Source of the DNA: Fidelibacterota bacterium
GTDB taxonomy: Bacteria > Fidelibacterota > UBA8477 > JABMPR01
Assembly (NCBI GenBank): GCA_013202385.1
Contig: JABMOT010000298.1
Coordinates: 1-45,548 of the forward strand
DNA: 45,548 bases
Direction of reading: 5' to 3'
The position numbers were made by a program, and so were the translations under genes. Under the pieces are notes generated by a model that was not told where the DNA came from, did not search any database, and worked only from the letters and a program-made list of their open reading frames with translations. Below, one piece after another: positions 2,783-15,211 of the stretch (the first letter of the stretch is position 1; each line of letters opens with the position of its first letter).

Positions 2783-4423
2783 GTGAGAATCATTTACAAA
2801 ACATTGTTCCTTGTCATTGCATTGTCATTTTTCTCTTGCAGCCAGGAAGTCGAAAAACCGCGGTTGGTCATTGTAATCTCCTTTGACCACCTTGCATATA
2901 ACACATACTCGCACTACCTCCCGATCTTTTCAGGCGGGTTTAAATGGCTTCATGATCACGGGGTCACTTTTAACAATGCCCATCATGAACATGGTTATAC
3001 ATCAACTGGACCCGGTCATTTCGTATTGGGCTCAGGGCTCTATCCAGGACCTGTTGGCGTTTTAGGAAACAACTGGTACGATCCTGTGAAAGACAAAGAC
3101 GTCTATTGCGTTGACGATGCAAATGCAAAAGCTCTTGATATTCCTTCGTCCAGCGTGTCATATGGACAGGTAAATGGAACCACTTATGGCGACTGGTTAA
3201 AAGCGGTCTCTCCCGCCTCAAAAGTATATGCAGTTGCAACGAAAGACCGAGCCGCTATCATGATGGGGGGCAAAAACCCTGATCTGGTAATCTGGTACAA
3301 TTGGAACGGTGCCTTTACTACCACTGATTACTATACCAAGACCATCCCAGCCTGGCTTCATAAATTTAACACTCAGGCAAATATGATTTCATATAGAGAT
3401 TCTGTCTGGACCAAATCGCTTCCTGAGGCTAGGTATGCAGAATATACCCATGGAGATTTTTTTAATGGTGAGACCGACAGATATCTTGACACCCCTTATT
3501 CCCCGGTTTTCCCTATCGGTTTTGAGCCTCAATGGGGCGATGCAAAAGTGCTTAGCGAGCTGGGGAACCGCCCCTGGATGGATCGTCAGCTTCTAGATTT
3601 GGCCAAGGTGCTAATTGATGAAGAACAATTGGGTCAAGACGCGACACCAGACATTTTAAGTATTGGGCTTTCAACCATGGATCTGGTTGCACATTATTAT
3701 GGTCCATATTCTCATGAAGTCATGGATCATTTGATCAAGACAGATCAATATTTATTGACCTTTTTGAACTATCTGGACGATGAGATTGGACTGGAAAACA
3801 TCTTATTTGCCCTCTCTTCCGATCATGGAGGCCTCCCTTTACCAGAACATCGGACTCAGATTGAGGGGAAACCCGGTGGTCGTGTTAACGAAGATGATTA
3901 TTGGGCTGCTCGAGAGAGTGCTTATGCTGCTCTGGACTCAATATATGGCACTCATCGATTTATCCATCGCAAGGGCTCGAGTTATTTCTATAGTCAGGCC
4001 ATCATGGACTCAATGCAGGTAGTGTCAACGGTCGTGGATTCAATTCTTCAGGTTCACATGGAATCAGTAGCGGGAATCCAGCGCCTCTATTCGAAAGCAG
4101 AGCTTCTGGACCCCGATCCATCAGATCGAAGCGCTGTCCGCCTTGGCCATTTTATGCATTCGGAGTTGAGCCCCGATTTATACACACTGGAAACAGAAGG
4201 CTGGCTGTTCCGAAATCCGTATGGAACGTCCCATGGGACACCCTATGAATATGATAGTCATGTCCCGATTATTTTCAGCGCTTTAGCATTCAACACCCTG
4301 GTCTTGACAGACTCAGTTTCTACAACAGACCTGGCACCTACTTTAGGTGATATCCTGGGGGTCTCGCCTCTGAACAAAGTAGATGGCATTAGCCTGAAGT
4401 CTCGACTTTATGACCTTCGGTAA
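2783..4423 (+). CDS. PafA-type alkaline phosphatase lipoprotein
   Basis: Alkaline-phosphatase-superfamily metalloenzyme, probably a periplasmic or surface phosphomonoesterase. The N-terminus has a hydrophobic stretch ending in FFSC (Cys19), a lipobox-like signal. Metal and catalytic features fit the family: Asp35 in ISFDH, the Thr nucleophile in TSTGPGH (about residue 75), NNWYD, the phosphate-binding KDR pair (Lys154, Arg156) typical of PafA/SPAP enzymes, the late SDHGG motif and the SHGTPYEYDSH metal site. The KxR pair argues for a monoesterase rather than a phosphodiesterase, by analogy with PafA. Length (546) is normal for the family. It begins with GTG, and no other in-frame start precedes the signal peptide. 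It appears to be a single gene. Confidence 0.88.
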   Translation: MRIIYKTLFLVIALSFFSCSQEVEKPRLVIVISFDHLAYNTYSHYLPIFSGGFKWLHDHGVTFNNAHHEHGYTSTGPGHFVLGSGLYPGPVGVLGNNWYDPVKDKDVYCVDDANAKALDIPSSSVSYGQVNGTTYGDWLKAVSPASKVYAVATKDRAAIMMGGKNPDLVIWYNWNGAFTTTDYYTKTIPAWLHKFNTQANMISYRDSVWTKSLPEARYAEYTHGDFFNGETDRYLDTPYSPVFPIGFEPQWGDAKVLSELGNRPWMDRQLLDLAKVLIDEEQLGQDATPDILSIGLSTMDLVAHYYGPYSHEVMDHLIKTDQYLLTFLNYLDDEIGLENILFALSSDHGGLPLPEHRTQIEGKPGGRVNEDDYWAARESAYAALDSIYGTHRFIHRKGSSYFYSQAIMDSMQVVSTVVDSILQVHMESVAGIQRLYSKAELLDPDPSDRSAVRLGHFMHSELSPDLYTLETEGWLFRNPYGTSHGTPYEYDSHVPIIFSALAFNTLVLTDSVSTTDLAPTLGDILGVSPLNKVDGISLKSRLYDLR

Positions 4424-4587
4424 CCCCCTCGTAAGTACGCGGACACAGACACAGATCGACGGAACCTTTTCCAGGAAATAGTGGTGTCGCCCCTTTTCAG
4501 TCATTCTCAGGCAGCCTAAGTCATTGTTATTATCTAACAAGACCTTATATTTGGGTTAAAGTTTATCAAACAGGAAGGAGTTGTTCT

Positions 4588-5478
4588 ATGCGAACGCAAA
4601 ACAATCCGAGGGTGTTTCCCGGTCTATTGATCTTTCTTGGATTATTTCTTCTTCAGCAATGTGCCTGGTTTCACAAAGATACGAGCGAGTCGGAGCTTAT
4701 AAAACCGCACCCTGTAGGAGGGTACGAAACCTTAAGCAACGCAATAAACTATCCGCGTTCTGCCCGGGAGCGAGGTATTGAGGGCAGTGTGACGATTAAT
4801 GCTCTGGTGTCAAAAGATGGGCTGGTGGTAGAAACCCTTATTGTCGATGCCCTTGATCCTGAACTGGATCAGATTGTTACGAATGCGGTTAAACGGACGC
4901 TATTCGAACCAGCTTTGAGAAAAGGCAAACCGGCTTCCGTGTGGATCTCCATCCCTTTTGTGTTTTCGCTGAGCGAATGGAGCATGAAGAACTCTCCATT
5001 TAAGACATTCAAAATGACGATTCGACCCAGCTCCACGTATAAAAGTTTTGATGTTGAGCTTTACGGAAAACTGAAAGATGATGTAGAGCTACCGCTGCGA
5101 ATAGAATGTTTACTACCCTTTAATTTTGAAAAAACCTGGGTTAAGAAGGCCAGTGATGTGATCCAGGCCAGCGGGACAGTGAAAGATGAAAGCGGTGAAT
5201 GGCTTGTATTTCAAACCGCTGAGAAGGAGCTGTCTTTTGGTTTTAGCTATAACCTGCTGGAAATCTTGAAACAAACCCATTTCCAATATAAATTTGCCCT
5301 AAATCACGCCCTCCCTGATTGGGAATTGGCTGTTGTCAGTGAAGCCCAAAATCTGCGTTTTAGCCAGAGCCCTGACCGAAGCACCGTGGAGGAGGATGGA
5401 AGGGTCAGAGTTGAATACGACCTAAAAAGTCTGGAAATTTATGAACCCAGATATCTTGAAATCGAACTCCAGATATAG
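4588..5478 (+). CDS. TonB C-terminal domain protein
   Basis: The 296-residue protein starts with a hydrophobic segment (about residues 11-25) ending in LLQQC. This could be a lipoprotein signal, but Gln before the Cys is a poor lipobox, so a membrane anchor is also possible. Residues about 45-120 form a TonB C-terminal domain: YPRSARERGIEGSV, then VSKDGLV and a late F-PA-RKGKPASVW segment, as in energy-transducer TonB proteins. The rest, about 175 residues rich in beta-type sequence, is not recognised. There is no Pro-rich spacer like that of classical TonB. A ribosome site AGGAAGGAG lies about 7 bases upstream. It precedes the GldLM-like operon by 155 bases in the same direction, so a link to that motor is possible but unproven. 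Confidence 0.75.
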   Translation: MRTQNNPRVFPGLLIFLGLFLLQQCAWFHKDTSESELIKPHPVGGYETLSNAINYPRSARERGIEGSVTINALVSKDGLVVETLIVDALDPELDQIVTNAVKRTLFEPALRKGKPASVWISIPFVFSLSEWSMKNSPFKTFKMTIRPSSTYKSFDVELYGKLKDDVELPLRIECLLPFNFEKTWVKKASDVIQASGTVKDESGEWLVFQTAEKELSFGFSYNLLEILKQTHFQYKFALNHALPDWELAVVSEAQNLRFSQSPDRSTVEEDGRVRVEYDLKSLEIYEPRYLEIELQI

Positions 5479-5633: not shown

Positions 5634-6164
5634 ATGGAAAAAGTACAGGGCTATACTCGCAAAAAAACAGTTATGGAACAATACCCCAGCCGACAGGCTC
5701 TGGTTTACTCAGGAGCTGCCTTCCTGATCTTGGTCACGGGAATGAGAACCGTTCTCTCGGTCGCTGAAGAGGGTTTTGGATTTATAGAATATGTGACAAT
5801 TGGCGCCCTGGCTATAGAGTTTAGCTTATTACTACTTTATGCGTTTACAATATTTCAGGCCGGAAAAGAAACCTTTGAGATCACCCTCCATGAGGAAGTT
5901 GAAGCCATGGAACATGGAGAGGTTGATGGAAGTAGCGCACCATCAGGCGATTTTTCAGTTCGATCGGCAGATGTCCCTGAAATAGCGAAAGAGATCAACA
6001 AGTTTACCACCCTGGCCAGCAGTCTGGTTGAGAAGTTAGCCAAAAATGTGGAACAGAGTCAGGCTTTAAATAAGCACATGGAGGAGTTGGCTGATGAACA
6101 GATCAATATCCGTGTACGGAACGAAATTCAACGTCTGTTAAGCGCAAATCTTTCCTCGAAATAA
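5634..6164 (+). CDS. gldL: GldL-like motor protein (two-helix inner-membrane stator)
   Basis: Predicted inner-membrane component of a GldLM-type proton motor. The 176-residue protein has two N-terminal transmembrane helices (about residues 23-43 and 52-71) followed by a cytoplasmic, helical, coiled-coil-prone tail (about 110-170). This is GldL topology. Helix 1 carries Arg38, where Flavobacterium GldL has a Lys. Helix 2 reads GALAIEFSLLLLYAF, placing Glu62 where the essential membrane Glu of GldL lies. The overall sequence is divergent, so the call rests on topology, these charged residues and the adjacent gldM-like gene. A GGAAGAA site lies about 6 bases before the ATG. The next gene starts 18 bases after the stop. 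Confidence 0.72.
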   Translation: MEKVQGYTRKKTVMEQYPSRQALVYSGAAFLILVTGMRTVLSVAEEGFGFIEYVTIGALAIEFSLLLLYAFTIFQAGKETFEITLHEEVEAMEHGEVDGSSAPSGDFSVRSADVPEIAKEINKFTTLASSLVEKLAKNVEQSQALNKHMEELADEQINIRVRNEIQRLLSANLSSK

Positions 6165-6182
6165 GTAGACAGGAGTAGCCGC

Positions 6183-7595
6183 ATGGCTGGCCAAAAAAAG
6201 TTCCAAGCTCGTGTTGAAGTTTATTTCATTATATATATCGCCACGATCGTCAGTTTCTTCGCTATTGAAGGCGAAGTAAAACATTTTAAGGACAGCCAGA
6301 AGAAAATTCTGCTGGAAGTGTCCAAAGATAAAATTCAAAACCTGGTGACTATCAGGAATGCAACGGATCTCCACAGTAAAGATTCCATCAGTCTAAAAGT
6401 GCAACTCGATGGTGCCTTTGAAAAGGACTCCTTTGAAGGAACGGTGCATCTCAATCCCATTGACGCACCTGAAGAACTCAATCTTAAAGAATTGTCTTAC
6501 GCTCTCGCAGCTAAAAATAATGATCCTGACAATAAGACATTTATGGCACTTATACCGAAGTCTGATTTTGACCTGAAATCTGATGTACTCTATCGAATGT
6601 CAGCAGACATCAGTGTAATGCCGGATGAAAAGCTGGTTGAGCAGGAGCTTTCCAAGTCATATTCAGAAAAGTTAATTGTCCAGAAAATAATGGATGCCAT
6701 GACTGATGTAGGTAAAATTTCTCTGGAAAAAAAATTCCAAAATACCCTGGATCCTACAGGGGGAGCCATTCAGGCACCTTTTACGATTACTGTTGATCGT
6801 CCCAAGGTGAGTATTGTAGAAGGGCTACCCTGGGAAGTTCGTGTCATTATTGGTGGAATCGCCGATATTGATGATCTTGAACTCACAGCTTTAAAAGGTT
6901 CCGAGCTGGTTGGCAAATTGGAATCAGGTATTCCGGTAGCCCTGGTGGCGGGCCGAGGTCGAAAAGATGGACGCATCACCTTACGTGGAACAAGACTTTC
7001 TGATGAAGTGGCAGTTGATGTAGACTTCGAACTCCAGGTGCGACCCCCCGTTTGGGTGAAAAAACCGAGCGAAACAGAAGCATATGTTGGTGATCCTATC
7101 CTGTTTGAGGGCGCTCTGCGTGATATTCCTTCCTCAGAGACCTCCATTCGCGTAGGTGGAACAGCTGTACGTGGCGGGATAATGCCGGGAACCCTGGCCC
7201 AACTGTCCAATTTGACCGAAGAAGGGAATGTCTCCTTCCAGGTTCTGGTTGATGGCCGTGAAGTAAAAGGGATGAGCCACACGCTCAGCGTGATCAAACC
7301 ACCAGCACCAAAAATATCCACCAACCCAGTGGGACGTGATGGAAACTTCCTGACCTTTGAAATCGTGACTTATGGAAAAAATAACGCGATCCGCAGATTC
7401 CGCAAAAAAGGTGGAATCGGCTCCAACCGACAACTTGGCGAGGCTCAGATATTGGGGAGCCGCAAGATTTACCGCTGGGAAGTTGAGCTGGAAGAGCCCT
7501 TTGAAAAAGCCGAGACCCAGGAAATCAAATTCAGCGTTGATGATGAAAATAAAACGGTGGAGGACTACCGGAAAATATTCATTTATAATTATTAA
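6183..7595 (+). CDS. gldM: GldM-like motor protein (periplasm-spanning rotor)
   Basis: Predicted partner of the preceding GldL-like protein. The start MAGQKKFQAR resembles the MAGGK...R start of GldM, including Arg10 just before the only transmembrane helix (about residues 12-28). The remaining 440 residues are periplasmic: a helical region to about residue 190, then several beta-rich segments with Ig-like spacing (IT-VDRPKVSIVEGLPWEVRV, PPVWVKKPSETEAYVGD, SVIKPPAPKIS), like the D1-D4 rod of GldM/PorM. Length (470) is a little shorter than the roughly 515 of Bacteroidota GldM. AGGAG at 6171-6175 sits 7 bases before the ATG. In the GldM family the rod reaches the outer-membrane complex. Here the following genes encode outer-membrane proteins. 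Confidence 0.75.
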   Translation: MAGQKKFQARVEVYFIIYIATIVSFFAIEGEVKHFKDSQKKILLEVSKDKIQNLVTIRNATDLHSKDSISLKVQLDGAFEKDSFEGTVHLNPIDAPEELNLKELSYALAAKNNDPDNKTFMALIPKSDFDLKSDVLYRMSADISVMPDEKLVEQELSKSYSEKLIVQKIMDAMTDVGKISLEKKFQNTLDPTGGAIQAPFTITVDRPKVSIVEGLPWEVRVIIGGIADIDDLELTALKGSELVGKLESGIPVALVAGRGRKDGRITLRGTRLSDEVAVDVDFELQVRPPVWVKKPSETEAYVGDPILFEGALRDIPSSETSIRVGGTAVRGGIMPGTLAQLSNLTEEGNVSFQVLVDGREVKGMSHTLSVIKPPAPKISTNPVGRDGNFLTFEIVTYGKNNAIRRFRKKGGIGSNRQLGEAQILGSRKIYRWEVELEEPFEKAETQEIKFSVDDENKTVEDYRKIFIYNY

Positions 7596-7643
7596 CCGGA
7601 AGCGAGATAAATCTATGTTAAATGTAATTAAAGGGAGGTAGAT

Positions 7644-8942
7644 GTGAAAAATCGTAACCTCATAGCACTGCTTACCATGCTCAGCTTTGTTTCCACTATG
7701 TGGGCACAAAGTTTTCAAGAAACAGGCAAGCTGGAATGGGTTGTCAAAGATCGTGAGTTTAGCCGTTCATTTATGGAAGCCTATATCGATACCCTCATGA
7801 CAATAGATGATATGGCCGAATTGGAAGTCCAGGAAACAGACGAATTACGCGTCATTGTCGGAATCGATGTCGAAGGGAATTCCAGCCTGGAAAACATCTA
7901 TGCTAAAGGCCGTAGCGGTGTGTTGAATAAGCTGGCTAAAGCCGTATTGGACAGTATGGATGCAGAAATGATTGACAACATTCAAAGCAGGCGTTACAAC
8001 TGGGACTATCTTTCTGCCGTAGATGTTGGGGGCGGTCGCGGAGATGTGATCAATGTGTTTGAGGAGCGTAGCAACAAACAAGTTCGGGATGCATTCTGGT
8101 GGACCCATCGCCGGGTAGACATTTCCGTATTTCCGCGTATTTTTATTCGTGTAAATCCAAATTTTGCCTTTGCTGCTGAATTTGGACGCCAGGATCTAGG
8201 TTTTCCCGCGGCAGCCTCGCGAACGCTGAATATGGGTTTGGCCACCGAAGTGTTAAAATTTTACGCAACCCTTCCTGCGTCCTATTTAAACCTGAACAGT
8301 AGCAGTAACCCCCTTGAAGGAACCTTTGGTGGCGTACTCAAGTTTGATTCACCCAGTTTTGGTGGCAGTATTTCCTTCCAGGACATGAACTTCCTTGGAA
8401 CAACAGATACCAGTAATTTTTTGAGCCCCAAAAACGCTGTCTATAATCCAGCTTCAGGCCAATTTTACTATAGTTTTACCAGTCGAATTGGGTCCCCTGC
8501 AGATCAACCAGGTTTTGTTCCGATTGGATCGTTGCGTTTGCAAATTGGATTTACCTTTATGCAGTTTGCTTATGGCCAGGTTTTCAACGAATCAGGCATT
8601 TCTGATGGCACTGGTGCATATCATCAACTGGATAAATCAGGAGCCCTGGAATCGATGTTCGGTCTTTTTCGTGTCGAGTATGCCTCAGACATGAACAACC
8701 GATTTTTTAACAAAATTAAAATGGCCGGGCAGCTAAATATGGGTCTGGATGGATTTGGCGGCTTTGACTTTACCACCAGTTATACAATTACAGAATGGTT
8801 GGGTGTCAATTTGAATCTGACCTATTTTTGGAAACCAATGGTCTTCACTTATGAAGATCCTGATCCCACATTAACATCAGTGCTAGAATATGAGTGGAAA
8901 CCTGGTTTCTTTATCGTTCCCTCAGTAGCGCTGTACTTCTAG
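7644..8942 (+). CDS. Outer-membrane beta-barrel protein, motor-associated (paralogue 1)
   Basis: The 432-residue protein has a signal peptide (cleavage after MWAQ) and an N-terminal domain of about 130 residues. It then runs through alternating aromatic/glycine beta-strands from the motif FWWTH (about residue 150) to a C-terminal Phe (SVALYF), the signature of outer-membrane barrels. GTG start with GGGAGG at 7633-7638, five bases upstream. It lies 48 bases after the GldM-like gene and is followed at once by a paralogue, suggesting both are outer-membrane partners of the motor. The N-terminal domain occupies the operon place of GldN but shows no convincing GldN motif by eye. The role is inferred from context only. 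Confidence 0.7.
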   Translation: MKNRNLIALLTMLSFVSTMWAQSFQETGKLEWVVKDREFSRSFMEAYIDTLMTIDDMAELEVQETDELRVIVGIDVEGNSSLENIYAKGRSGVLNKLAKAVLDSMDAEMIDNIQSRRYNWDYLSAVDVGGGRGDVINVFEERSNKQVRDAFWWTHRRVDISVFPRIFIRVNPNFAFAAEFGRQDLGFPAAASRTLNMGLATEVLKFYATLPASYLNLNSSSNPLEGTFGGVLKFDSPSFGGSISFQDMNFLGTTDTSNFLSPKNAVYNPASGQFYYSFTSRIGSPADQPGFVPIGSLRLQIGFTFMQFAYGQVFNESGISDGTGAYHQLDKSGALESMFGLFRVEYASDMNNRFFNKIKMAGQLNMGLDGFGGFDFTTSYTITEWLGVNLNLTYFWKPMVFTYEDPDPTLTSVLEYEWKPGFFIVPSVALYF

Positions 8943-8953
8943 GAGGATTTGAG

Positions 8954-10222
8954 ATGATGAATACAAATATCCGCAAAGCTATCCTGGTAACACTGGGTTT
9001 GATAATTTCACTGTCAAGTGTTCTGGCACAACCCAAAGCGCCACCCATGTTGGACCCTCGCCGCTTTGATGCCTGGACCGTAGAGTATGAGCCCTTCCGG
9101 CTACTTATCGAGAATGCAGTAGAAGAATATATCACGCTGAATGACACAGAATTGCTACCCATTGCATCAACGGACAATGTTATCGCAGTTCGCTCAAAAT
9201 CTGGACAGAGACAACTCTATCAGATTCGATATGGAACCGCCTCAGACGGCTATATCGTCATTGACAATATGGAAGTAAGGTGGGTTCTTGGTTCAACGCT
9301 TGCTCAGACCATCTCTGAAAAAGAAACCTACTATCATCTTGATACCCAGGAACCCTATGAAACAAAGACACATCGTCCAGAAGTCGAATATCTGGAGGTT
9401 GAAACCTTTTGGACCCATACCGATCTGCAAATTGGAACCGATCGATTGGTCTATCTCTTTGGAAAATCTGGCGGGTTGACTGTGGAATGGGGTAGTGAAC
9501 TGTTTGGACGTCCCTATGGAGAGGCCGGTTTTGCTCGGTTTGGTGTCATAACCCCAATCTTCAAATTAGGTCTTCAGGTTCCATCACCTTCTATAGCCCT
9601 GGGATATCGGGCGGGAGCTGAAACGGATGAGTATTTAACCGGTGGAATCGGTGGTTTTGGAGCATTCAAATACAAGGTTCTTTATGGAGAATTGTTTTTT
9701 CAGTCCCTTGAACCTGCTCTTGCCGAAGGATCATTTATACACAGTTATGATCTGGGTGGTTTAATGAACTTGAGCTTTAACACCACGCTATCTGGCATCA
9801 AAATCAGCGAAAAAAAGAGTCTTTTTGCCGGCGCCATGCAAATTCGACTTGGTGCAGTGATTGCCAGAGTCGACCATAGCAAAATTGTAAATGATAGAGT
9901 TCTATTCCAGAACCTCAAGCGGACCTATAATGTTGCCACTGGAGATACAACGGATGAATTCAAAAATGGTGATGCCGCATCGCTTGAAGAGTCAGGACTA
10001 TTCTTTCGAGTGGATTATGCATCCACCCTTATTGGCAAACGCTTTCCTCGTCATGAGGCCACCTTTCAGGTTTCCGGTCCCAGTATCATGACAAAGTATG
10101 TATATAATGTGAGTCATACCCTGGGTATCCCCCTAACGGTTCTGTTATATACGAAGGACAATGAATGGTCACCCAGTGCTGCAATCCTGGTTGGATTTAA
10201 ACTAAGACTCGATCAAAACTAG
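8954..10222 (+). CDS. Outer-membrane beta-barrel protein, motor-associated (paralogue 2)
   Basis: This 422-residue exported protein (signal peptide ending SSVLAQ) is a divergent paralogue of the gene before it. Both share an N-terminal domain of about 130-150 residues, then an FW-TH motif (ETFWTHTDLQIG here), a beta-strand region, and a late conserved block (FFRVDYAS...KRF here, LFRVEYAS...NRFF in the neighbour). A perfect AGGAGG at 8941-8946 overlaps the stop of the upstream gene and fixes the start at 8954 rather than an in-frame ATG at 8894, which would sit inside the neighbour. It is the last gene of the operon and is followed by a strong terminator. The barrel call is good; the function is unknown. 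Confidence 0.7.
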   Translation: MMNTNIRKAILVTLGLIISLSSVLAQPKAPPMLDPRRFDAWTVEYEPFRLLIENAVEEYITLNDTELLPIASTDNVIAVRSKSGQRQLYQIRYGTASDGYIVIDNMEVRWVLGSTLAQTISEKETYYHLDTQEPYETKTHRPEVEYLEVETFWTHTDLQIGTDRLVYLFGKSGGLTVEWGSELFGRPYGEAGFARFGVITPIFKLGLQVPSPSIALGYRAGAETDEYLTGGIGGFGAFKYKVLYGELFFQSLEPALAEGSFIHSYDLGGLMNLSFNTTLSGIKISEKKSLFAGAMQIRLGAVIARVDHSKIVNDRVLFQNLKRTYNVATGDTTDEFKNGDAASLEESGLFFRVDYASTLIGKRFPRHEATFQVSGPSIMTKYVYNVSHTLGIPLTVLLYTKDNEWSPSAAILVGFKLRLDQN

Positions 10223-10239: not shown

Positions 10240-10271
10240 AAAATAGGGTAGGCAATTGCCTGCCCTATTTT
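10240..10271. terminator. Bidirectional intrinsic terminator (32-nt near-perfect palindrome)
   Basis: AAAATAGGGTAGGCAA is followed directly by TTGCCTGCCCTATTTT, a 16-bp inverted repeat with one G-T wobble. The flanking A and T runs give a U-tract in either direction. It sits 18 bases after the stop of the second barrel gene and closes the GldLM-like operon. On the minus strand it lies just after the end of a small open stretch (10286-10438). Confidence 0.85.
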
Positions 10272-12893: not shown

Positions 12894-13094
12894 TTGTACG
12901 TTATGTTTATTTTGATAGCCTTTAGCCTGGCAGTCTCTTTAATCTTTCTGGCAGCTTATTTCTGGTCAGTGCGATCGGGTCAATTTGACGATAAATACAC
13001 ACCATCAGTGAGAATTTTATTCGACGATAAAGGGACCCATAAAAAAACCGAAACCGATGCGGAATCGGTAGGAAACCACGAGGAGAATCAATAA
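12894..13094 (+). CDS. ccoS: cbb3 oxidase maturation protein CcoS
   Basis: A 66-residue single-helix protein needed for cofactor insertion into cbb3 oxidase. The N-terminal hydrophobic helix is followed by the CcoS-type segment W-VRSGQFDDKYTP, which is conserved in the family. Translation can start at TTG 12894 or at ATG 12903; the latter gives 63 residues and both fit. The stop overlaps the start of the fused ccoNO gene (TAATG at 13092-13096), implying translational coupling. A charged tail of about 25 residues follows the core and looks variable. Confidence 0.9.
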   Translation: MYVMFILIAFSLAVSLIFLAAYFWSVRSGQFDDKYTPSVRILFDDKGTHKKTETDAESVGNHEENQ

Positions 13095-15211
13095 TGGAGA
13101 TGGAAAAATTTGAGTACGACAATAAAATCGTACGAATGTTTTTCTGGGCTACGCTTGTGTGGGGAATTACAGCCTTTCTGGTCGGTTTGACCATTGCACT
13201 CCAGCTACCAGCGCCAGCGTTTAACTTTAGCACTTCCTGGCTGACATTTGGTCGCCTGCGTCCTCTACACACCAATGCCGCTATCTTTGCCTTTGTAGGT
13301 AATGGTATTTTTATGGGCTATTACTATGCTGCCCAACGCTTATTGAAAGCGCGAAATTTTTCTGACACCCTGAGCCGAATCCATTTTTGGGGCTGGCAGG
13401 CTATCATTGTTTCTGCAGCGATAACGCTACCAGCAGGCATTACCAGCGCTAAAGAATATGCTGAATTGGAATGGCCCATTGATATCGCCATCGCTCTGAT
13501 CTGGGTCGCCTGGGGAGTAAACATGATCGGCACCATTATGAAGCGCCGAGAGAAACACCTCTATGTAGCCATGTGGTTTTTTATCGCCACTTTTGTCACG
13601 GTAGCCATGCTGCATATCGTGAATTCATTGGCAGTTCCCGTAGGCTTCTTTAAAAGCTACTCCATCTATGCCGGCGTTCAGGATGCTCTGGTGCAATGGT
13701 GGTATGGACACAATGCAGTCGCCTTTTTCCTGACCACGCCCTATCTCGGGCTGATGTATTATTATATGCCAAAGGCCGCCCAACGTCCGGTTTATTCCTA
13801 TCGCCTGTCAATCATTCATTTTTGGGCGCTTATCTTTCTGTATATCTGGGCCGGACCCCATCATTTGCTGTATTCTTCGACTCCAGATTGGGCTCAGACG
13901 CTGGGAACCGTGTTTTCGATTATGCTAATCGCTCCTTCCTGGGGAGGCATGCTCAACGGACTATTAACGCTCAGAGGAGCCTGGGACCGTGTGCGCCAGG
14001 ATCCCATTCTCAAGTTTATGGTTGTCGCCGTATCAGCATACGGCATGTCTACTTTTGAAGGCCCCATGATGTCATTAAAAAACTATAATGCCATCACCCA
14101 TTTTACAGACTATACCATCGCCCATGTTCATGTGGGCGCTCTTGGATGGAATGGTCTTCTCACTTTTGGAATCCTATACTGGTTAGCCCCACGTCTATGG
14201 AACACAAAACTTTATTCAGTAAAATTGGCCAATGTTCATTTCTGGTTGGCCACCCTGGGATTGGTTTTCTATGTCATCCCCATGTATTGGACGGGGATTA
14301 CTCAAGCCCTCATGTGGAAGCAATTTAGCCCAGAGGGTTTGCTGGTTTATCCCAACTTTCTGGAAACCGTTCTGGAACTCATCCCCATGTATTGGACGCG
14401 TGCATTTGGCGGAACCCTCTTCCTCACTGGTGCCCTGGTAATGGGGTACAATTTGGTAATGACGGCTCGTTCCGGTACTGCAGTTGACAACGAAGAGATG
14501 GAAGCAGCCCCCTTAAAACCCATTGTTTCAGTGCCAGGTGAACACAAACATCGCTGGTTAGAAGCACGCCCGGTCCCCTTTATTATCTTAGCCTTTGTGG
14601 CTGTGGCCATTGGTGGCCTGGTTGAATTTGTCCCCATGTTTGTGGTAAAAACAAATATCGCCACCATGACTACGGTAACGCCCTACTCTCCACTGGAACT
14701 TGAAGGCCGAGATATTTACATCAAAGAAGGTTGTTTTAACTGTCATTCTCAAATGATTCGACCCTTCCGCAGTGAAACAGAACGTTATGGCGAATATTCC
14801 AAAGCCGGTGAATATGTTTATGATCACCCCTTCCTCTGGGGTTCAAAACGAACGGGTCCAGATCTGCACCGAGAAGGTGTGGGAAAATTGAGAAAGCCAG
14901 ATGCCTGGCATTATAATCATATGGAAAATCCACGCTCCATGAGTCCCGGATCAATTATGCCAGTCTATCCCTGGCTGCTTGAGCGGAGCAATGACTACGC
15001 CAGTCTTCCCAAAAAGATTAATGCCATGCGAACCCTGGGAGTTCCTTATGAACCCGGTTATGAGGATCAAGCTCTAGCTGACTTGAAAAACCAGGCTGAA
15101 GGCATTGTCACGAATCTAAAGGATGCTGGAATTGAAACGACCTGGGATAAAGAGATTGTTGCATTGATCGCGTATTTGCAAAAACTCGGAACTGGAATCC
15201 TTCCCAAATAG
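13094..15211 (+). CDS. ccoNO: cbb3 cytochrome c oxidase, fused CcoN-CcoO subunit
   Basis: Catalytic subunit and monohaem cytochrome subunit in one 705-residue polypeptide. Residues 1 to about 460 are CcoN: 12 helices with the haem and CuB histidine motifs (RLRPLHTNAAI, WWYGHNAVAFF, GPHHLLYSSTPDWAQ, IAHVHVGALGWN). A linker and one helix (WLEARPVPFIILAFVAVAIG) lead into CcoO, with the c-haem site CFNCH (547-551), QMIRPF, GPDLHREG and the Met ligand region SPGSIMPVYPW. Such N-O fusions occur in Bacteroidota and relatives. No frameshift or internal stop divides the two parts. It reduces O2 to water at high affinity and pumps protons. Confidence 0.96.
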   Translation: MEMEKFEYDNKIVRMFFWATLVWGITAFLVGLTIALQLPAPAFNFSTSWLTFGRLRPLHTNAAIFAFVGNGIFMGYYYAAQRLLKARNFSDTLSRIHFWGWQAIIVSAAITLPAGITSAKEYAELEWPIDIAIALIWVAWGVNMIGTIMKRREKHLYVAMWFFIATFVTVAMLHIVNSLAVPVGFFKSYSIYAGVQDALVQWWYGHNAVAFFLTTPYLGLMYYYMPKAAQRPVYSYRLSIIHFWALIFLYIWAGPHHLLYSSTPDWAQTLGTVFSIMLIAPSWGGMLNGLLTLRGAWDRVRQDPILKFMVVAVSAYGMSTFEGPMMSLKNYNAITHFTDYTIAHVHVGALGWNGLLTFGILYWLAPRLWNTKLYSVKLANVHFWLATLGLVFYVIPMYWTGITQALMWKQFSPEGLLVYPNFLETVLELIPMYWTRAFGGTLFLTGALVMGYNLVMTARSGTAVDNEEMEAAPLKPIVSVPGEHKHRWLEARPVPFIILAFVAVAIGGLVEFVPMFVVKTNIATMTTVTPYSPLELEGRDIYIKEGCFNCHSQMIRPFRSETERYGEYSKAGEYVYDHPFLWGSKRTGPDLHREGVGKLRKPDAWHYNHMENPRSMSPGSIMPVYPWLLERSNDYASLPKKINAMRTLGVPYEPGYEDQALADLKNQAEGIVTNLKDAGIETTWDKEIVALIAYLQKLGTGILPK

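Follow-up and report, generated by a model that had tools for sequence, protein, structure and literature searches.

Few routes are known by which inner-membrane energy is carried to the outer membrane, namely, the Ton and Tol systems, the motor of the type 9 secretion system (T9SS) and of gliding, and the gliding motor of Myxococcus. Closest to the locus described here is the T9SS and gliding motor of Bacteroidota, formed by GldL and GldM and normally accompanied by GldK and GldN. A survey by T9SS models reported T9SS in Bacteroidetes only (60/97 genomes; PMC4793230). We examined positions 5634 to 10222 of contig JABMOT010000298.1 (assembly GCA_013202385.1, Fidelibacterota bacterium), the whole 45,548-nucleotide stretch analyzed being called the window. 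The source genome, from a group of marine bacteria that has received little study, is a Candidatus Neomarinimicrobiota metagenome-assembled genome (MAG) of 3.17 Mb in 318 contigs, estimated to be 72% complete. An original prediction, made from the DNA letters alone, held that four genes, here called L, M, B1, and B2, encode a GldLM-type proton motor that lacks GldK and GldN and is paired with two outer membrane barrels. With a probability of roughly one half, we read L and M as a divergent GldLM-type motor whose predicted function is to drive its own pair of outer membrane barrels. The genes and sites concerned are as follows.

Positions 5634 to 6164, plus strand: L, an open reading frame (ORF) of 176 amino acids with two transmembrane helices and a cytoplasmic coiled-coil-like tail; candidate GldL-like partner.
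Positions 5745 to 5747, plus strand: codon for Arg38, close to where helix 1 of L ends and 11 residues past the Gly of an invariant Gly-Ala-Ala motif.
Positions 5817 to 5819, plus strand: codon for Glu62 of L in helix 2, the sole acidic residue inside either helix.
Positions 6183 to 7595, plus strand: M, 470 amino acids, defined by its ORF, an AlphaFold2 model, structure comparison, and alignments; candidate GldM-like partner.
Positions 7644 to 8942, plus strand: B1, 432 amino acids with a signal-like N terminus, defined by its ORF, a model, FadL-type matches, and co-occurrence with M.
Positions 8954 to 10222, plus strand: B2, 422 amino acids with a signal-like N terminus, an N-terminal domain, and a putative barrel; B1 paralogue.
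Positions 10240 to 10271, no strand assigned: 16-bp hairpin preceded by A and followed by T, terminator-like in both directions.

The four ORFs lie where they had been placed and are tightly spaced, with gaps of 18 bases between L and M, 48 between M and B1, and 11 between B1 and B2. For B2, the listed ORF begins at 8894, and its start was set at 8954 from the alignment of relatives and the signal-like sequence. The terminator proposed to close the operon was recovered as an inverted repeat with 16-nucleotide arms that are 94% complementary; a simple terminator scan at this hairpin gave a related site on the minus strand only.

The genes L, M, B1, and B2 form a single module whose order and linkage are conserved beyond chance. 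Across 245 genomes of the phylum, an alignment of M gave matches in 40 and one of B1 in 38, with both proteins present in 37; in the mismatched genomes (G033, G118, and G158 with M only and G190 with B1 only), a partial match runs to a contig end. Gene order was surveyed in 41 loci, one for each M-positive genome plus the second copy of G007, the extra M of G156 being left out. Every locus that holds all four genes (33 of 41) carries them as L, M, B1, B2 on one strand; the other eight are cut by contig ends, and no other order was seen. The distant relatives used share only 24 to 28% identity with the window M, and therefore the linkage is of long standing. The M and B1 trees (FastTree) were in broad agreement. 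Both second copies of M, on contig C48 of G007 (locus L032) and contig C99 of G156, occur in genomes that already have one. When contigs of named genomes were scanned with the B1 alignment, 12 loci were recovered, all from MAGs and 11 of them from Candidatus Neomarinimicrobiota; a scan of such contigs with M alone gave no relative. In the genus of the window, M was present in 13 of 19 genomes, the source genome included.

Hydropathy analysis of the window L and of sampled members gave two helices, at amino acids 23 to 41 and 56 to 74, and placed Glu62 in helix 2 and Arg38 in helix 1, as predicted. Glu62 and Phe63 are invariant across 40 L sequences, as are Gly27-Ala28-Ala29. Position 38 is Arg in 37 of these sequences and Lys in 3, such that the residue 11 after the glycine is basic in all 40. 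Canonical GldL likewise has a Lys at this spacing, counted from the Gly of GA[A/S/T] (6/6), and helix 2 also carries a Glu; basic residue and Glu lie 18 to 22 residues apart there and 24 to 26 apart in the eight L sequences compared. Glu49 of Flavobacterium GldL is described as strictly conserved and essential (PMC8986121). The pattern in L bears on the alternative of a passive scaffold across the envelope, made of L and M and anchoring two barrels with no proton-driven motion. Such a scaffold would need no rotation of the motor, which we infer, and would suit a rod resembling generic immunoglobulin (Ig) tandems, but a lone buried Glu in 40/40 L sequences, together with an always basic position in helix 1, is unexpected for an anchor; we consider this alternative improbable.

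For M, hydropathy gave a single helix at 11 to 29, and the AlphaFold2 model (mean pLDDT, 81.9) consists of a helix at 3 to 52 followed by beta domains, in agreement with the periplasmic beta-rich rod that had been proposed. Its first domain, at about 55 to 190, is mainly beta, with strands within 55 to 145 and 179 to 189 and two helices within 149 to 176; three tandem Ig-like domains follow at about 196 to 288, 299 to 373, and 377 to 470. In structure comparison, this Ig-like rod resembled generic Ig tandems. Columns 13 to 28 of the M alignment contain no D, E, K, R, or H in any of 41 rows, and Glu31 follows the helix in all 41. The single helix of M was thus borne out, but the MAG-K...R start proposed with it is particular to the window, relatives keeping just a Lys or Arg before the helix (39/41 rows).

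By hydropathy, the sole hydrophobic stretch of B1 and of B2 is N-terminal and signal-like, and both proteins therefore begin as exported proteins would. B1 was modeled at modest confidence (mean pLDDT, 69.9) with an N-terminal domain at about 28 to 115 and an outer-membrane-type beta-barrel at about 151 to 432 that is FadL type by structure matches. Profile comparison identified B1 and B2 as paralogues (hhalign probability, 94; E, 1.3e-7; 365 columns). The original prediction of two barrels is accordingly upheld by a model for B1, and by paralogy for B2, which presumably shares the fold. In one branch, Pfam searches with alignments found cadherin-type domains in B2. In the f26/f28 branch, B1 carries a lysine-rich insert of about 150 residues within the barrel region (locus L078, 4237 to 6036, and others); the insert has no Pfam match, an SHD1 domain suspected in that of f26 also receiving no support, and the region is described simply as an insert. 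A GldN domain hidden in B1 and B2, suspected from a shared-looking FW motif, found no support by hhalign, and neither protein matched the one PorP compared.

Profile comparisons of L and M with GldL and GldM gave a suggestive signal of homology. Aligned by hhalign against six GldM sequences, M scored 29.0, higher than 150/150 column shuffles, the reversed set (15.9), and 262/262 background ORFs. The comparison of L with GldL likewise exceeded 149/149 shuffles and the reversed set (19.6); the Cardinium GldL frame (L098), interrupted by stops, was excluded from the sequences compared. A smaller GldL set moved the alignment to helix 2, where the glutamates of L and GldL were matched to each other (E, 0.064). 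In hmmsearch with the full GldM profile, M members ranked 1, 2, 4, 6, and 8 of 479 (best E, 0.0012), and with the full GldL profile, L members ranked 1, 3, 5, 7, and 8 of 477 (best E, just 0.41). L and M have no usable family in Pfam or NCBIfam; L gave weak coiled-coil matches.

Several observations weigh against descent from GldL and GldM, or against the wider reading built on it. The hhalign match of M to GldM (185 columns, M 190 to 377) is weak, with an E of 0.012; its margin over the best background ORF is narrow (29.0 versus 28.3), background ORFs being single sequences and GldM an alignment; and each of the six GldM sequences by itself scores between 14.3 and 19.8, inside the background range. 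The match of L to GldL (E, 0.007) is also weak and falls on the coiled coil, not on the helices. With N-terminal GldM and GldL profiles, M and L ranked no higher than background ORFs, which speaks against an easily recognized homology. In Pfam, L, M, B1, and the window B2 gave no match over the cutoff, and NCBIfam gave none; single relatives of L gave weak coiled-coil matches (best, 4.5e-5 for one member). PDB profile searches gave no GldL or GldM chain among the matches for L and M, and weak, coiled-coil, or no matches for L, M, and B1. GldM was likewise absent from the 50 best matches listed in either structure comparison of M, although this is no evidence against a likeness to GldM, because Ig tandems fill these lists. 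The first domain of GldM is reported to be helical (PMC5790014), while that of M is mainly beta. Glu31 of Flavobacterium GldM is described as conserved yet dispensable (PMC8986121), and thus its counterpart in M would mark kinship, not function. Finally, 6 of 19 genomes of the genus gave no match to M, and both the contact of M with B1 and B2 and the surface task are putative. Related searches were also negative within their scope: GldL_N (PF22827) was not among the best 25 of 62 families for 19 L members, the GldM family was not among the Pfam matches of 20 M members, canonical GldM was not found in the viral contigs scanned, and PADLOC gave no match for the window proteins and a weak one (E, 0.04) for a single distant L.

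Genes for T9SS are widespread in the phylum. SprA_N was found in 223/245 genomes and the T9SS sorting tail (PF18962) in 243/245 (at most 22 candidates per genome scored), in line with the many sorting tails reported in SAR406 (PMC5596340). Canonical GldL_N was found in only two genomes (G143 and G205) and GldN in one (G205). The G205 locus (L090, contig C9) carries gldK-gldL-gldM-gldN and that of G143 (L091, contig C43) carries gldK-gldL and part of gldM; both contigs are probably foreign to their bins. In the source genome, 72% complete, no GldL match was found at an E of ≤10 and no GldN match at an E of ≤0.001. Relatives of GldK or GldN were not detected among L, M, B1, and B2 by hhalign (with two GldN and few GldK sequences), and the motor genes thus stand without either, as had been claimed.

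The presence of SprA raises the alternative that the module is a lineage-specific T9SS energizer, with B1 and B2 relaying the action of the motor to the SprA translocon. SprA_N occurs in 35/40 genomes with M, and the source genome has SprA_N and at least 22 sorting-tail matches, with 22 of 117 candidates scored; a tie to T9SS, for which the original prediction had proposed a search, is therefore possible for this species. The B1 barrel is moreover FadL type, like the T9SS shuttle PorV, which we take chain F of 6h3i to be. However, SprA_N is also present in 188/205 genomes without M, and sorting tails are nearly universal; the module is thus neither needed for SprA nor the motor that serves T9SS throughout the phylum. 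The module also lies on contig C285, whereas sprA lies on C90, and it lacks GldK and GldN relatives. We regard an energizer of this kind as unlikely. The sprA-like gene (locus L033, genome G000) is an ORF of 2,175 amino acids within a run of same-strand ORFs; the ORF of this run at 4028 to 4876 presumably encodes a PorV-type protein.

Under the reading that we favor, a divergent GldLM-type motor with its own barrels, L would form a ring that encloses the helices of two dimerized M chains, in a 5:2 ratio by analogy with GldLM, and passage of protons at Glu62 of L may move M. The three Ig-like domains of M, as modeled, would span the periplasm. M may then act on B1 and B2 by way of their N-terminal domains, which presumably lie in the periplasm; the two barrels would replace the GldK/GldN ring. 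The barrels are taken as the target of M mainly because B1 is found only with M (37/38 genomes, the exception being a contig-end fragment). In the weakest step, the barrels would pass the movement on to a surface task, most likely the moving or exporting of surface adhesins. A fuller version, in which a self-contained trans-envelope rotary machine drives the paired barrels directly through the GldLM-like rod, with no GldK/GldN ring and independently of T9SS, and serves surface movement or adhesion in part of the Marinimicrobia, we hold as tentative, at somewhat less than even odds. The original claim that the same kind of motor drives a different outer membrane machine thus stands as regards layout, missing GldK/GldN, linked barrels, and conserved neighborhood; homology to GldL and GldM is only suggestive, and domain 1 of M departs from that of GldM.

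The gene upstream of L differs among branches. In the window, it is the following.

Positions 4588 to 5478, plus strand: lipoprotein-like TonB_C protein, 155 bases upstream of L (Pfam TonB_C, 1.4e-16; synteny).

This protein was called lipoprotein-like by eye and has only a candidate place in the system. Among the 41 loci, L is preceded by TonB_C in 12, a ParA-like block in 7, relatives of a cadherin lipoprotein in 16, and none of these in 5, while one locus starts inside M. The TonB_C gene adjoins L in 12/12 loci of the genus with upstream sequence, which, with FadL-type barrels often being channels, would agree with an envelope-energy module for uptake or outer membrane upkeep, Ton- or Tol-like but with a new motor. 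Yet the TonB_C neighbor was not seen in other loci, and contig C37 of the source genome yielded two ExbD matches, beside ORFs that read by eye like ExbB and TonB; L and M gave no hhalign match to these ExbB/ExbD-like single sequences. Such a role is in our view a long shot.

The ParA-like block consists of five genes directly upstream of L (L067, 1203 to 5579; L068, L070, L071, L075, L093, and L095), encoding a 138-amino-acid protein that reads as a zinc ribbon, a 240-amino-acid protein, a ParA-like ATPase, and proteins of 476 and 326 amino acids. The ATPase suggests positioning of the machine. In 16 loci (L078, 7867 to 11131, and 15 more), a lipoprotein-like protein is encoded directly upstream of L; a cadherin domain was found in that of L078, the sole one tested, and a gene for a TPR protein, with a weak sigma-70/LuxR-like match at its C terminus, usually lies beside it. 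In this branch, B2 and the neighboring lipoprotein both have cadherin-like domains. Both these cadherin-type domains and, in the other branch, the ParA-like block would be compatible with a surface machine that is kept in position and serves adhesion, movement, or export. Elsewhere in the window, a 705-amino-acid ORF at 13094 to 15211 encodes what we take to be a fused CcoN-CcoO cytochrome oxidase subunit.

No report of the module was found among the open-licence PMC papers listed, mostly titles and the beginnings of abstracts, on GldLM homologues or on GldL/GldM, T9SS, gliding, or secretion in Marinimicrobia/SAR406. Should the favored reading be correct, the motor would be separable from T9SS and a reusable part, with barrels in place of the GldK/GldN ring; in the fuller version, the module would be a separate means of energizing the outer membrane from the inner one. 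The near absence of canonical GldL and GldN beside widespread SprA_N and sorting tails also raises the question of what powers T9SS-type export in most Marinimicrobia.

Compared with GldLM and PorLM of Bacteroidota, the module shares adjacent genes for a two-helix protein whose helix 2 carries a Glu, the basic residue of helix 1 at the same distance from its glycine, and a one-helix partner whose helix lies between a Lys/Arg and a Glu 21 (in M, with a charge-free helix) or 22 residues apart. As published for PorM, M ends in three Ig-like domains, here by model. Unlike GldLM, the pair has no GldK or GldN, and next downstream come genes for two barrel-type paralogues; M begins its periplasmic part with a domain that is mainly beta and not helical; and profile similarity is just suggestive, in a phylum nearly without canonical GldL. 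ExbBD, TolQR, MotAB, and ZorAB, other 5:2 motors, would by analogy share an inner-membrane pair of a ring-like and an axle-like partner. Unlike ExbBD, TolQR, and MotAB, the putative axle helix of M has no acid in its middle (41 rows), and L has two helices. At the outer membrane, the closest counterparts are barrels of the PorV/FadL type, which the barrel of B1 matches.

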